From the NCBI RefSeq assembly GCF_004346865.1, contig NZ_SMGR01000001.1, forward strand, positions 1,798,001 to 1,862,000: a stretch of 64,000 nucleotides of DNA, written 5' to 3'. Positions 289-5,989 of the stretch are shown here, one piece after another. The DNA comes from Shimia isoporae. Its GTDB lineage: Bacteria; Pseudomonadota; Alphaproteobacteria; Rhodobacterales; Rhodobacteraceae. Position 1 is the stretch's first letter. Every line of letters begins with the position of its first letter. Made by a program: the position numbers and the translations under genes. The notes under the pieces are model-generated. The model searched no databases. It saw only the letters and a program-made list of their open reading frames with translations, and had not been told where the DNA came from.

Positions 289-306
289 ATTAACCTACAC
301 CTAAAC
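289..306 (+). promoter_or_regulatory. CtrA-like box upstream of first diguanylate cyclase
   Basis: The sequence reads ATTAAC-N6-CTAAAC, which contains TTAA-N7-CTAA (290-304), one mismatch from the CtrA consensus TTAA-N7-TTAA. It ends 24 bases before the start codon. Closely matching boxes sit before both downstream paralogues. Binding by CtrA is inferred. Confidence 0.55.
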
Positions 307-330
307 TCTGGGCGCTATGTCCGGCCCGAA

Positions 331-2172
331 ATGTCAATTGGGACTCAGGCTTTGCAAGTGACCGGAAAACATATTTGGATTTGGTGCGCAGCGCTTTTTT
401 GCGCCTTGTTGTCGTGGGCCGAAACCACGCAGGCCGAGTACAGCAGCTTTGATGCTGGCGCAATTCTGGAAGAAGACATCTACCGCTACCCTTTGAAGGG
501 CGATTGGATGTTTGCGTGGGATCGGTTCCTGACACCTGAAGAAGCCGTCACAGCCTTCAAGGAGCAGTCATTGCCTTCCAAAGCCGTTCCGTCGAACTGG
601 TTTGGCACTGTACCGAGTGCCGAAGACAATCCCCATGACCACGGCATTGCTTCCTATGTCGCGCCGCTGACGCTGCCCGAGATACCAAATTCCGATCTGG
701 TTCTGCACGTTGGCGAAATTCACGATGCCTATCGCCTGATTTGGGTGCCTCTTGATGCCCCCGAAGATGCCGTCGAAATTGCAACCCGCGGAAACCTAGC
801 GGGACCAGAACTGGTTGCGCACCGCAATCTGCGTCACTCCCTGCCCTTTTCCGGCGATGGTCTGCTGCTCGTCCATGTGCGCAAATCTATGTTTGACTGG
901 GGTGGGATCACGCTTGCTCCATATGTGGCCACCGCCGACAAGGAAGGTTTTGCCTTTTACGTCAAAAGCATGATCGGCGGAATCACCATTGGTGCACTCC
1001 TGCTCATCATGCTGCGCAACGGTATGTTGTACCTGTCCGGTCTGCGCGACGTGGCGGCAGGTGTTCTCGCCATGATCACCATGATGATCATCGTTCGCGC
1101 AGTTGCCGTGGAAAACATGGTTGAAATGCTCTTCGGCACGCAATGGCATGCGACCCGGATGCGCATAGAGGTCGGCTTGGTCGCCGTGATGTCCTCTTGG
1201 ACGTTCCGCATGCTCGAAGTCCTCTTTCCGCGTCCCATGCCGCAAATTGTCCGGCTGCCCATTCACATCGGCGCGCACTTGATCGGCCTTGCAACGCTGC
1301 TTGTGCCGCTACACAACGTGTCGGACATGCTCATTCTGGCGCAAATCATCGCCCTGATCAGCTTTATCCCGGGCGGTGTGCATATCGTGAGCGCACTTCG
1401 AACACACTCCAACGAGGCGCGCCTGCTGGCAATCTCCGCCGCGCTTTGTCTGGCAGCGGGGCTGAACGACATCTACGCGTCCAACAGCGATAACTACAAC
1501 GTGCATCTCATTCCGGTCAGTGTTGTGGTTTTGGTCATGTTCCTGAGCCAAGTCATCGGTAACCGCGCAGCTTTGGCAATCGCGAGGTCAGACCTGCTGG
1601 AACAGGAAAAAGAACAACTCGAGCGAGCACACGACGACGCAGTTCACATGGCCCGTCACGACCATCTCACGGGTCTTTTGAACCGTCAGTCCTTTGACCA
1701 TTACTGGGCACAAAGCTGGCTCGACTCGATCGAAAACCAAACACCGCTGACTGTCGTCCTTTTTGACATCGACCATTTCAAATCAATCAACGACAATCAC
1801 GGCCACCCGATTGGCGATGCGGTTCTCAAATCGCTGGCAGAGCGCCTTACGTCCTGCAATTTGCGCAAATCGGACCGTTTGTGCCGTTACGGCGGCGAAG
1901 AATTCGCATTGATCCTGCCAAACAGCACCCAACGGGATGGAGAAGCCATGGCTGAACGTCTGCGCAAAGCCATCGCCGCAAATCCATTGCATGCCTCTGA
2001 CCCGGAGATCACTGTGACCTGCAGCTTCGGCGTTGCCAGCACAGATCTTTGCAACGAGAAGTCCGCCGAGGGCCTTTTGACCCGTGCGGATGAGGCGCTC
2101 TATGCCGCCAAGGCAAACGGACGGAACTGCGTTTTCAGCCCTCGAGGTGCATCTCAGAAAGCTGCAGCCTAA
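331..2172 (+). CDS. Membrane diguanylate cyclase, 7TMR-DISM type (paralogue 1 of 3)
   Basis: Predicted to make cyclic di-GMP from two GTP in response to a periplasmic cue. A signal peptide (about residues 1-35, ending TTQA) precedes a periplasmic region with the jelly-roll pattern G-x-W near residue 54, VPSNW and ASYVAPLTLP. About seven hydrophobic segments follow (about residues 210-405), then a short coiled coil (LLEQEKEQLERAHDDA) and a GGDEF domain. Catalytic GGEEF is at 521-525, metal-binding FDIDHFK lies upstream, and the inhibitory I-site RxxD is at 512-515 with the canonical five-residue spacing, so product inhibition is likely. There is no EAL domain. At 613 residues it closely matches the next two genes. 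No clear Shine-Dalgarno precedes the ATG. The ligand is unknown. Confidence 0.9.
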   Translation: MSIGTQALQVTGKHIWIWCAALFCALLSWAETTQAEYSSFDAGAILEEDIYRYPLKGDWMFAWDRFLTPEEAVTAFKEQSLPSKAVPSNWFGTVPSAEDNPHDHGIASYVAPLTLPEIPNSDLVLHVGEIHDAYRLIWVPLDAPEDAVEIATRGNLAGPELVAHRNLRHSLPFSGDGLLLVHVRKSMFDWGGITLAPYVATADKEGFAFYVKSMIGGITIGALLLIMLRNGMLYLSGLRDVAAGVLAMITMMIIVRAVAVENMVEMLFGTQWHATRMRIEVGLVAVMSSWTFRMLEVLFPRPMPQIVRLPIHIGAHLIGLATLLVPLHNVSDMLILAQIIALISFIPGGVHIVSALRTHSNEARLLAISAALCLAAGLNDIYASNSDNYNVHLIPVSVVVLVMFLSQVIGNRAALAIARSDLLEQEKEQLERAHDDAVHMARHDHLTGLLNRQSFDHYWAQSWLDSIENQTPLTVVLFDIDHFKSINDNHGHPIGDAVLKSLAERLTSCNLRKSDRLCRYGGEEFALILPNSTQRDGEAMAERLRKAIAANPLHASDPEITVTCSFGVASTDLCNEKSAEGLLTRADEALYAAKANGRNCVFSPRGASQKAAA

Positions 2173-2193
2173 TGGGAGAGTGCGTTGGTCAGG

Positions 2194-2211
2194 ATTAACC
2201 GGCTTCTAAAG
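2194..2211 (+). promoter_or_regulatory. CtrA-like box upstream of second diguanylate cyclase
   Basis: ATTAAC-N6-CTAAAG, containing TTAA-N7-CTAA (2195-2209). It lies 54 bases before the start codon in the 93-base gap between paralogues 1 and 2. The six spacer bases differ from those in the other two boxes, while both half sites are kept. CtrA binding is inferred. Confidence 0.55.
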
Positions 2212-2265
2212 ACTTTGATTTAGGAATCCGAAACCAACAAACGGCAAAGATTCGGCCCTCTTCCT

Positions 2266-4089
2266 ATGCACAAAATCTCCCTGTCCCTACTTCGCGCTGC
2301 CTTGTCCGCGCTCCTGCTGGTGTTGCAGGTCGCCGCGCTACAGGCCCAGACCGCCGGACCGGATTTTGCACCAGCGGGTGATGACGCGGATTTCACCCGC
2401 TCCTTCAAGCTGGAGGGGGAGTGGTATTTCGCGTGGAACGAGTTTCTTTCCCCCGCGGAGGCTCAAGTTCTCTATGACAAGGGCACCCTACCCAAAGTCC
2501 CGATGCCGGCCCGCTGGGAAACCTACCTGCCGAAATTCGACGAGAACCCGCATCACCACGGAACAGCGACCTACATTGCACGCCTGTCTTTGCCCGAAAA
2601 CGCGCCAACAGATCTGATGCTGGTCGTCGGAGCAATTCAGGATGCCTATCGCATCACGTGGATGCCATTGAACACGCCTGAGCAAGCCGTTGTGATCGCC
2701 GAGGAAGGCAACCTGTCGGGTCCCGAACTATCCGCGCTGCGAAACTTGACATTTCCTTTTCCCGTTTCTGGCGACGGATTGTTTATCGTTCATGTCCGAA
2801 AGACGATCTTTTCCGAAGGCGGCCCGCGCAACGCGCCGGAAATCCAACGTGCAAAAGACAGCAACATGCAGGTGCGCAAAGACAATCTCAAGAACGGTCT
2901 GATCGTCGGTGTTCTTCTCCTGATCGCCGTGCGTCTCTTGACGTTCTGGCCCGCGGCACGACAAACCAACGCCGCCCTTATTCTCTTTGCCGCAACTTGC
3001 CTTGTTCTGTTTCGCGTCGTGGCGGTTGCCGGAATTTTCGAGCTTTTGTTCGGCACTGCGATCCACCCATTGCGCTTGCGACTGGAGCTCGCGACCATGC
3101 CTCTTTTGGGCGCCCTCCTAGTGGCGCTCAACCAGACGCTTTTCAACAAATTCATGTGGCGACGCTTGCGGCAGACGGTTTATTTCTCATCAGCAATCGT
3201 TCTGGCCTTTGCGCTTTTGGTATCGCGAGAGTGGGTCACTGTTCTTGTGCCCCTGTATCAAACCCAGATGATACTCGTTTTTGCCCTTAGTGGAGTCTGC
3301 ACCGCCCTGGCTGTCCGTCGCAGGGAACCCGGAATTTACGGGCTTGTGCTGGTCACTCTCTGCGCAATGCTCGCAGGGGTGCACGACGTTGTGGCCGGAA
3401 ACACTGATGGATATGACGTGATGATCGCCGAGTACGCGACCCTGCTCATCATGATCTACTACAGCCACACAATCACAAAACGCATCTCGGAAGCCATCCA
3501 GCGAGCAGCCCGGCTCGAGCAGGAAAAAGAGCAGCTGAGCCGCGCACATACAGATGCCGTACGGATGGCCCGGCACGATCACCTTACAGGCCTGCTCAAC
3601 CGTCAGTCTTTTGACTACCTTTGGGCTGAGAGTTGGTTGGATCACTGCGAGGAAAAATCGCCTCTGTCGATCATGCTCTTTGACATCGACCACTTCAAAC
3701 GCATCAACGACTCCCTGGGTCATGTGGCGGGCGACGAAGTCCTGAAATCGCTCGCTGTTCGCCTTTCGGAATTTGACCTGCGTAAATCGGATCGCCTTTG
3801 CCGATATGGAGGCGAAGAATTCGTGCTGATTCTGCCCAACACTCCCCAAGCAGACGCGATAGCGCTTGCTGATCGTCTGCGCGCCGCCGTAGTCGAAACG
3901 CCCCTTCTCGAAGAGAACACCGAGTTGCGTGTCACCTGCAGTTTTGGGGTCGCGGGATCCGACCAAACTCAAAGCCCTTCCGCCGACCATCTTCTGGTTT
4001 CCGCTGACACAGCTCTCTATCAAGCCAAAGCCCACGGTCGAAACTGTGTGCGTGCGTCACACAACATAGCTTCGGAGGAAGCCGCATAA
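2266..4089 (+). CDS. Membrane diguanylate cyclase, 7TMR-DISM type (paralogue 2 of 3)
   Basis: Same architecture as its neighbours: signal peptide (about residues 1-28, ending LQAQ), periplasmic jelly-roll-like region (LEGEWYFAW, VPMPARW, GTATYIARLSLP), about seven membrane segments (about 205-400), coiled coil, and a GGDEF domain. GGEEF is at 515-519 and the I-site RKSD is at 506-509, so the enzyme looks active and feedback-inhibited. The linker LEQEKEQLSRAHTDAVRMARHDHLTGLLNRQSFD is nearly identical to paralogue 1, whereas the periplasmic and membrane parts have diverged more. This suggests a shared output with different sensing. It has its own 5' box rather than an overlap with the gene before, so separate transcription is possible. 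Confidence 0.9.
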   Translation: MHKISLSLLRAALSALLLVLQVAALQAQTAGPDFAPAGDDADFTRSFKLEGEWYFAWNEFLSPAEAQVLYDKGTLPKVPMPARWETYLPKFDENPHHHGTATYIARLSLPENAPTDLMLVVGAIQDAYRITWMPLNTPEQAVVIAEEGNLSGPELSALRNLTFPFPVSGDGLFIVHVRKTIFSEGGPRNAPEIQRAKDSNMQVRKDNLKNGLIVGVLLLIAVRLLTFWPAARQTNAALILFAATCLVLFRVVAVAGIFELLFGTAIHPLRLRLELATMPLLGALLVALNQTLFNKFMWRRLRQTVYFSSAIVLAFALLVSREWVTVLVPLYQTQMILVFALSGVCTALAVRRREPGIYGLVLVTLCAMLAGVHDVVAGNTDGYDVMIAEYATLLIMIYYSHTITKRISEAIQRAARLEQEKEQLSRAHTDAVRMARHDHLTGLLNRQSFDYLWAESWLDHCEEKSPLSIMLFDIDHFKRINDSLGHVAGDEVLKSLAVRLSEFDLRKSDRLCRYGGEEFVLILPNTPQADAIALADRLRAAVVETPLLEENTELRVTCSFGVAGSDQTQSPSADHLLVSADTALYQAKAHGRNCVRASHNIASEEAA

Positions 4090-4117
4090 ACCCGAAAAAC
4101 GGTGCTCAGACCCAGAA

Positions 4118-4135
4118 ATTAACGCCCTCCTAAAC
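4118..4135 (+). promoter_or_regulatory. CtrA-like box upstream of third diguanylate cyclase
   Basis: ATTAAC-N6-CTAAAC, containing TTAA-N7-CTAA (4119-4133). It ends 27 bases before the start codon. It is the third copy of the same arrangement in this array. CtrA binding is inferred. Confidence 0.55.
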
Positions 4136-4162
4136 ATTCTTGCTTAAGCAAGTATCTCCCCA

Positions 4163-5989
4163 ATGAGCCAATGGATGTCTCAATTGTCCTCACTTTTGAA
4201 AATCTGGTTTTGTGCGATCTTTGCCTTATTTGCGCCAATAGGTGCTTCTGCGAACTCGGCGGACCATTTTCATGTGCAATCGCCTCAGACTGGTGATTTT
4301 GATCCGGTCAATCTGGACGGTGTCTGGGCCTTTGCCTTCGATACTCACCTAGAACCCGAAGCCGCGATACAGGCTTTCCAAAACGGCGAACTAAAATCGA
4401 TAGACGTGCCGGGAAATTGGGTCGACAAGGCCCCTAGGTCCCGCGAAAACCCTTTCGCGCATGGTAAGGCCACGTACGTCGCACATATCTCGCTGCCCGC
4501 TGTGGCACGCAATGATCTGGTACTGACAGTACCTGTAATCCGCGACGCATATCGATTGATCTGGGTGCCGCTCAACGAGCCTGAAAACGCTCGCCTGTTG
4601 ACCCAGCAAGGCACGCTGAAAGGCGACCTTGTTCCGGCCGTCCAGAACCTGACACTGCCGTTGCCCTTCACTGGGGAAGGTTTGCTTCTGGTGCACGTGC
4701 GCAAAGAACTGATGTCATGGGGTGGGATAAACCTCACCCCAATCATCACCACGGCTCGCGCCGCCAAATCGGCGTTTTTGATCGAAAGCCTTCTGACCGG
4801 CATGGCCATTGGCGCTATGTTGCTGGTTTGCGTCAAAAACCTGCTCTTGCTGCGCGCCTTCCCACGAGACCGCGCAGCGCGTCTCCTGACTTTGCTTGCA
4901 CTTGGCGCAACCCTCCGCGCCTTCGCGGCCACTGACATGATCGAAACCCTGTTCGGCCCGGAATGGCACAGCCTGCGCATGCGCCTCGAGATAGGCCTGA
5001 TCCCGGTTTTGTGCTCGGTCGCGCTCGGCCTTCACCAGGTTCTGTTACCGCGTCGGTTCCCCTTTCCTGTACACGGCCCTGTCCATGGTCTGGGTCTATC
5101 GCTCACCCTTGGAATTCTGGTGCTGCCAACGGACTATCTTTACTCAGCCCTGATTGTGGCACAGGCCTATGTATTTGTGTCTTTCACACCTGCTATCCTG
5201 CACCTCACCCACAGCTTGAGAAACCGTGTGGAAGGCGTAGGCGGGCTCGTTCTTGCCGGGTGTTTCTGCGCCTTCTCTGCTGTGCATGACGTGGTTTCAT
5301 CCCAGACCATAGGATACGAATTCAATATCGTTCCTGTCGCCGTCATAATTCTCGTGTCTGTCTATGGTCAGGTTGTCAGCCGTCGCGCTACCGCGGCGCT
5401 CTCGCGCGCTCGCGAGTTAGAAAACGAACGCGCTGAACTGCGCCGACAACACTCCGACGCGCTGCACAAGTCTCGACACGACCACCTGACCGGCCTGCTC
5501 AATCGACAGTCTTTCGACTGGCAATTGGCCAACAGTTTTGCCGAAGGCGTGGCGGAAACCCGCCCGACCGCCGTCGTTATTTTCGATATCGACCACTTCA
5601 AGGCGATCAACGACACCCATGGCCATCCGGTTGGTGACCTCGTGCTCCAAAGCCTGGCAAACCGTCTCGCTTCAGTTTCCCTGCGCGAACCGGACCGGCT
5701 GTGCCGGTATGGCGGCGAAGAGTTTGCCCTGATCCTGCCGGACACAACACAGGCCGAAGCCGTTGGTTTGGCGGAACACATGTGCAACCTGATCTCCGAA
5801 GCACCGATCCTGCAGGACGCCCCGCGCCTGTCAATCACCTGTAGCTTTGGTGTCTGCGCCACAAACATGACCGATGCAGCGACGCCCGAAGAGTTGCTCG
5901 CAGCGGCAGATGCAGCGCTTTACGACGCAAAATCGCAGGGGCGCAACCGTGTAAACTGGCCGGACAAACCCTTCATTCAGGCAGCCTGA
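4163..5989 (+). CDS. Membrane diguanylate cyclase, 7TMR-DISM type (paralogue 3 of 3)
   Basis: The third member, 608 residues. The signal peptide (ending GASA, about residue 30) is followed by the periplasmic region (LDGVWAFAF, VPGNW, GKATYVAHISLP), about seven membrane segments, a coiled coil (ARELENERAELRRQHSDAL) and a GGDEF domain. GGEEF is at 517-521 and the I-site variant REPD at 508-511, so both synthesis and product inhibition should be intact. It is the most diverged of the three, including in the linker. The gene ends 8 bases before the convergent aminotransferase gene. No good Shine-Dalgarno lies before the ATG. Confidence 0.9.
   Translation: MSQWMSQLSSLLKIWFCAIFALFAPIGASANSADHFHVQSPQTGDFDPVNLDGVWAFAFDTHLEPEAAIQAFQNGELKSIDVPGNWVDKAPRSRENPFAHGKATYVAHISLPAVARNDLVLTVPVIRDAYRLIWVPLNEPENARLLTQQGTLKGDLVPAVQNLTLPLPFTGEGLLLVHVRKELMSWGGINLTPIITTARAAKSAFLIESLLTGMAIGAMLLVCVKNLLLLRAFPRDRAARLLTLLALGATLRAFAATDMIETLFGPEWHSLRMRLEIGLIPVLCSVALGLHQVLLPRRFPFPVHGPVHGLGLSLTLGILVLPTDYLYSALIVAQAYVFVSFTPAILHLTHSLRNRVEGVGGLVLAGCFCAFSAVHDVVSSQTIGYEFNIVPVAVIILVSVYGQVVSRRATAALSRARELENERAELRRQHSDALHKSRHDHLTGLLNRQSFDWQLANSFAEGVAETRPTAVVIFDIDHFKAINDTHGHPVGDLVLQSLANRLASVSLREPDRLCRYGGEEFALILPDTTQAEAVGLAEHMCNLISEAPILQDAPRLSITCSFGVCATNMTDAATPEELLAAADAALYDAKSQGRNRVNWPDKPFIQAA

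Follow-up and report, generated by a model that had tools for sequence, protein, structure and literature searches.

Candidate CtrA-type promoters retained across a family of receptor diguanylate cyclases in Shimia

Near the start of a 64,000-nucleotide stretch of the Shimia isoporae genome (G000:C1:1798001-1862000, the whole of which we call the window) lie three tandem genes for putative membrane receptors with a diguanylate cyclase output, and each of them is preceded by a box that resembles the binding site of the regulator CtrA. Boxes of this type stand before 22 of the 23 members of the gene family found in the genus, and we think it probable, judging from sequence comparison, that they mark CtrA-activated promoters which have been retained across the whole family of receptor cyclases. 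That CtrA controls genes for the turnover of cyclic dimeric GMP (c-di-GMP) is, in general, already known; the literature searched, which covers few subscription-journal papers, yielded no account of CtrA acting on 7TMR-DISM cyclases. The family would provide a clear and testable case of a master regulator whose site type is retained on an entire set of receptors through duplication and deep divergence, and it names promoters at which CtrA dependence can be measured.

Boxes before the three genes and across their family

The motif ATTAAC-N6-CTAAA, which a first-pass annotation of this DNA had described before each of the three cyclase genes, is found there on the forward strand without a mismatch, starting at 289, 2194 and 4118. 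The CtrA-type boxes within it, of the form TTAA-N7-CTAA, occupy 290..304 (TTAACCTACACCTAA), 2195..2209 (TTAACCGGCTTCTAA) and 4119..4133 (TTAACGCCCTCCTAA) of the forward strand, and share 7 of 8 letters with the published CtrA consensus, TTAA-N7-TTAA (PMC9437464). Both strands of the window together hold TTAA-N7-CTAA three times, always at a cyclase gene, against a mean of 0.31 and a maximum of 2 in 100 shuffles; in the genome as a whole (4.23 Mb, 9 contigs) this form occurs at 12 sites, these three included, and TTAA-N7-TTAA occurs at 25 places. Automatic alignment of the three leaders found no long shared stretch and failed to line up the three boxes with one another.

With gene 1 as the query, relatives at E<=1e-80 are found in 13 of 25 Shimia genomes, 23 in total, of which the genome of the window holds seven, and a profile search built on 18 rows returned 23 relatives at identical places. 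In the 200 nt before their presumed start codons, TTAA-N7-TTAA is present exactly in 11 of the 23 upstream regions (0.09 in shuffles), TTAA-N7-YTAA in 16 (0.13 in shuffles) and, when a single mismatch is tolerated, TTAA-N7-TTAA in 22 (1.76 in shuffles). When all spacers from 0 to 15 were scanned for TTAA-Nn-YTAA, the same 16 of 23 appeared at 7, with otherwise one at 10 and one at 14; a spacing of 7 is specific in the promoters of this family. Conservation in orthologues, on which the first-pass annotation had staked its proposal, is evident in all three orthologues of gene 1, each of which carries a box one letter away from TTAA-N7-TTAA: TTAACCTTCACCTAA in G009 (Shimia sp. SK013), TTAACCGCCCCCTAA in G005 and TTAACCATCACATAA in G021. 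The window's genome encodes 13 GGDEF proteins, and a box within one mismatch precedes all seven that belong to the receptor family and none of the other six, though some of the latter hold single TTAAC half-sites. The original description of the box as a trait of three genes was therefore right for those three and too narrow for a genome in which the family numbers seven.

The distance to the gene is also similar throughout. Measured to the first-choice start codons, the boxes of the 22 promoters begin 41-71 nt upstream, and once the starts of four genes had been shifted downstream by eye (gene 1 to GTG 358, gene 3 to ATG 4175, and one gene each in G008 and G005) the range became 56-71 nt, with a mean of 64.5. 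Gene 1 more probably starts at the GTG at 358, since the ATG at 331 would leave hardly any leader past the -10-like element described below; a start at 358 would place the box at -68, matching its relatives. Because proteins with only 30-45% identity to gene 1 keep the half-sites, their spacing and this distance, selection is favoured over recent copying, as had been proposed at first sight.

Promoter architecture and the candidate regulator

When the 22 promoters (G006 being excluded) are aligned on the box and positions are counted from its first letter, four further columns stand out: T at +19 (21 of 22), A at +27 (20 of 22), C at +23 (16 of 22) and G at +22 (14 of 22). These anchored columns define -10-like elements on the forward strand at 315..320 for gene 1 (CTATGT, box start +25 to +30), at 2220..2225 for gene 2 (TTAGGA) and at 4144..4149 for gene 3 (TTAAGC). 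If A+27 is taken as the -11 position of a -10 element, then the box spans about -38 to -24 and lies over the -35 region, a usual location in CtrA-activated promoters. A FliA-type promoter at the second half-site (CTAAA) was considered separately and rejected by eye, there being no GCCGATAA-like -10 at the spacing of such promoters.

A sequence model of all 22 promoters has training rows as its top three matches genome-wide, and so we relied instead on matrices with rows left out. The 19-row matrix, from which the three rows of the window were removed while the gene-1 orthologues were kept, ranks the boxes of genes 2, 3 and 1 first, second and third on both strands of the 64 kb, at 24.6, 21.8 and 19.4 bits, the next match scoring 10.6; with the whole subfamily excluded, a 15-row matrix puts box 2 first, box 3 second and box 1 sixth in the window. 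The boxes of genes 2 and 3 are assigned by pattern match and matrix rank, and that of gene 1 by these together with its conservation in orthologues.

In the reading that we favour, each of the three genes would be transcribed from a promoter of its own, in which a CtrA site of the form TTAA-N7-YTAA overlies the -35 region and is followed at a fixed distance by a -10-like element, and CtrA would activate all three. The genome does encode a CtrA, which scores 431 bits against the NF045991 model (cut-off 350) and is the only one of 44 matches above that cut-off. Its own upstream region carries GTAAC-N6-TTAAC 66 nt before the ATG, the same site form as that given for the ctrA promoter of Rhodobacter capsulatus (PMC6363796).

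One of the closest published parallels is the gafA promoter of R. capsulatus, at which TTAAC-N6-GTAAC is bound by CtrA with a dissociation constant of about 55 nM; the site, which usually lies 65-71 bases ahead of the start codon, is conserved together with this distance in an alignment with 14 species, and mutation of either half-site brings gene transfer down to 10-22% (PMC6363796). The cyclase boxes share with this site the TTAAC-N6-NTAA form, one degenerate half-site, a similar distance to the start and divergent flanks (PMC6363796), and they differ from it by one letter in the four-letter second half-site. The gafA site drives a gene-transfer-agent activator and its binding by CtrA is proven, whereas binding of CtrA to the cyclase boxes is predicted. 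In Caulobacter, CtrA sites with another spacing are described as weakly bound (PMC3616915). Further parallels are Phaeobacter inhibens, in which 5 of 8 c-di-GMP turnover genes are lowered in ctrA, cckA and chpT mutants, and Dinoroseobacter shibae, which resembles it in having CtrA-dependent c-di-GMP turnover genes; flagellar genes, hnox and divL1 are lowered in CtrA-phosphorelay mutants of both (PMC12363192), and a CtrA site has been predicted before dgc2 (PMC6473078). These species differ from the present case in having two cyclases (D. shibae) and four GGDEF-only genes (P. inhibens), as compared with a receptor family whose members number seven in a single genome here.

Several observations weigh against CtrA-activated promoters, and we set them out together. 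The second half-site of the window's boxes reads CTAA instead of TTAA, and one family member, that of G006, has no box within one mismatch, its best match reaching 6 of 8 letters. Because all 23 promoters share a common ancestry, the counts given above are not independent. Transcription of gafA is reported to start at the CtrA site itself (PMC6363796), unlike the -35 position that we deduce for the cyclases. In the genome-wide search at E<=10, the 22-promoter model retrieved its three training sites from the window and one other site, and missed the four remaining cyclase promoters. Presumed CtrA targets elsewhere in the genome also match the cyclase matrix poorly, the ctrA site at 7.8 bits, the cckA site at 8.6 bits and the flagellar promoters at 13.3 (motB), 7.0 (flgB/fliI region) and 6.0 bits (flagellin), and a 12.6-bit match falls inside the flgB frame. 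We take the genes concerned to be motB, flgB and fliI; the motB site has the form TTAA-N7-GTAA and lies 62 nt before the ATG. Finally, the loss of one phosphorelay gene in P. inhibens or D. shibae leaves expression of the other two unchanged (PMC12363192), so that a box before a cckA-like gene lends weak support. Overall the boxes resemble CtrA sites, and the constant distance to the -10-like element is a property of the cyclase family that not every presumed target shares.

The alternative that survives best, though we consider it improbable, is that another DNA-binding regulator, such as a repressor or an OmpR-type response regulator other than CtrA, acts through TTAA-N7-TTAA and that CtrA is not the relevant one. 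Relatives of CtrA are available, ten of the 44 matches to the CtrA model being near full length, and the weak scores of the flagellar promoters fit such a regulator too. Against it stand exact boxes before flgE (L144), hnoX (L141) and a cckA-like kinase (L127), the similar site before ctrA itself, and the fact that motif, spacing of 7 and distance to the start codon all equal those of published CtrA sites. Quite unlikely, in our view, is that the conserved letters are simply a -35/-10 core promoter which an alphaproteobacterial sigma factor recognises without the help of an activator: the -10-like element at a fixed distance and a box that would overlie the -35 region speak for it, but two half-sites 11 bases apart are unlike a sigma hexamer, the six other GGDEF genes of the genome do without the box, and a generic sigma-70 scan, which covers that promoter type only, places no site at the boxes. 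Least plausible of all is that the boxes are functionless relics copied along with the genes, for although genes 1-3 are tandem paralogues and one ancestral leader must hence have been copied, spacer and flanking letters are free to vary among the 22 promoters, in contrast to the half-sites, T+19 and A+27, which are kept down to about 30% protein identity with gene 1.

The receptor cyclases and a possible circuit

The three genes, all on the forward strand, lie at 331..2172 (gene 1, 613 aa), 2266..4089 (gene 2, 607 aa) and 4163..5989 (gene 3, 608 aa; an alternative start at ATG 4175 is possible), and the second and third proteins are 43% and 42% identical to the first. Searches against Pfam find a GGDEF domain in all three, and a 7TMR-DISM_7TM domain above cut-off in genes 1 and 3; gene 2 scores 14.3 bits against a cut-off of 29, yet aligns along its length. 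The GGEEF motif is intact in all three proteins, and so are the inhibitory RxxD sites (I-sites; RKSD, RKSD and REPD in genes 1, 2 and 3), as the first-pass annotation had recorded; cyclase activity is a prediction from these motifs. That annotation had also described the periplasmic domains as divergent. These are 42-48% identical among the three and the GGDEF domains 54-65%, but the seven-transmembrane part, at 24-33%, is lower still and is the most divergent region.

A structure model of gene 1 (mean predicted local distance difference test score, pLDDT, 78; six rows) comprises an N-terminal helix, a beta-sandwich, membrane helices, a long helix and the GGDEF domain. Modelled separately (pLDDT 75, predicted template modelling score 0.76), the periplasmic part finds its best Foldseek matches among family-2 glycosidases (E from 4.5e-6, TM to query about 0.46-0.56, identity 11-19%), with beta-glucuronidases the majority among the 50 matches listed. 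We take the fold to be of the sugar-binding type that these glycosidases contain; a fold match of this kind is not proof of a sugar ligand, although a sugar-like ligand may be supposed from the model. No match to 7TMR-DISMED1 or 7TMR-DISMED2 was seen in the periplasmic part of any of the three proteins at E<=1 in Pfam. In this the window's proteins depart from RetS, LadS and NicD of Pseudomonas and RgsP of Sinorhizobium, with which they otherwise share the order of periplasmic domain, 7TMR-DISM_7TM and cytoplasmic output, the output of NicD being GGDEF as it is here (PMC6107284).

The seven paralogues of the window's genome comprise the three in the window, a tandem pair at C1:2096k-2100k and singles at C1:862k and C1:1257k. 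In the tandem pair (G000:C1:2096663-2100435) each gene has its own box, TTTA-N7-TTAA, one mismatch off the consensus. Beyond the genus, no relatives at E<=1e-70 were found in 294 sampled genomes of other genera in the taxonomic family, at most four candidates being scored per genome. A separate contig scan yielded mostly unrelated GGDEF domains, and among the 80 loci kept the sole close relative (59%) was L001 of Shimia sp. SK013, which is the same stretch as G009:C9. The family spans deep branches, with identity to gene 1 falling to 30%, and in the tree gene 1 clusters with the single genes of G005, G009 and G021 while genes 2 and 3 branch beside them (support 85/72 and 94/94) and have no counterpart among the 23 relatives outside the window's genome. 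L001 has the same arrangement with one cyclase, between what are presumably an amidase and an aminotransferase, and so among the genomes searched the triple array is particular to this one and the single-cyclase locus is wider. Between the three genes no terminator-like site was found on the forward strand at 2173-2265 or 4090-4162 (the scan gave 13 sites over 6.1 kb, where shuffles gave 7.4); read-through from gene 1 to 2 to 3 could therefore occur alongside their own promoters, and an operon in addition to these is possible.

On the favoured reading of CtrA activation, CtrA would time the synthesis of the receptors, placing it in the motile state, and their ligands would determine when they produce c-di-GMP. 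We suggest, less surely, that this c-di-GMP may act back on CckA and switch CtrA off, and since c-di-GMP does act on CckA in other alphaproteobacteria (PMC9756655), a negative loop would close. A fuller scheme, which we regard as speculative and rather doubtful, makes the family a ligand-gated off-switch for CtrA: motile CtrA-on cells would fill their membrane with as many as seven receptor cyclases that sense glycans of surfaces or of algae, a bound ligand would raise c-di-GMP and turn CckA into a phosphatase, and CtrA, motility and receptor synthesis would stop, the genus having multiplied its sensors while holding the promoter fixed. Should the periplasmic domains bind glycans, the family would connect surface or algal cues with the change from swimming to attached life, and back, in marine roseobacters.

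Boxes elsewhere in the genome

To look beyond the family, 33 other genomic sites were fetched, namely 24 of the 25 with TTAA-N7-TTAA and 9 of the 12 with TTAA-N7-CTAA, the four omitted being cyclase promoters. None of the 24 and two of the 9 fall inside genes, as judged by a crude gene caller that missed at least one gene (L125). The kinase behind the L127 box is a partial protein whose best matches are CckA models, all under their cut-offs, and a PAS protein at L136, which has no NCBIfam match, is taken by us to be DivL-like. Many of the fetched boxes adjoin genes without a known tie to CtrA, among them an ATP sulfurylase, molybdopterin oxidoreductases and a cation ATPase.

Some of these places deserve mention in their own right. 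The hnoX box (L141:1511-2999, G000:C1:786310) has T19 and A27 with the -10-like spacing, and the next gene is a partial histidine kinase, as against a cyclase in D. shibae. The box at 1511 of L125 (G000:C1:1329610) is the top non-cyclase match seen to the cyclase matrix, at 19.5 bits, and came fourth in the search with the 22-promoter model; it precedes a protein with several CxxCH haem motifs. Lastly, six of the 24 fetched exact TTAA-N7-TTAA sites (L114, L122, L123, L124, L134 and L135) stand before genes for Hint_2 proteins (three) or proteins with RTX calcium-binding repeats (three), which may represent an arm of this regulon devoted to secreted or surface proteins.

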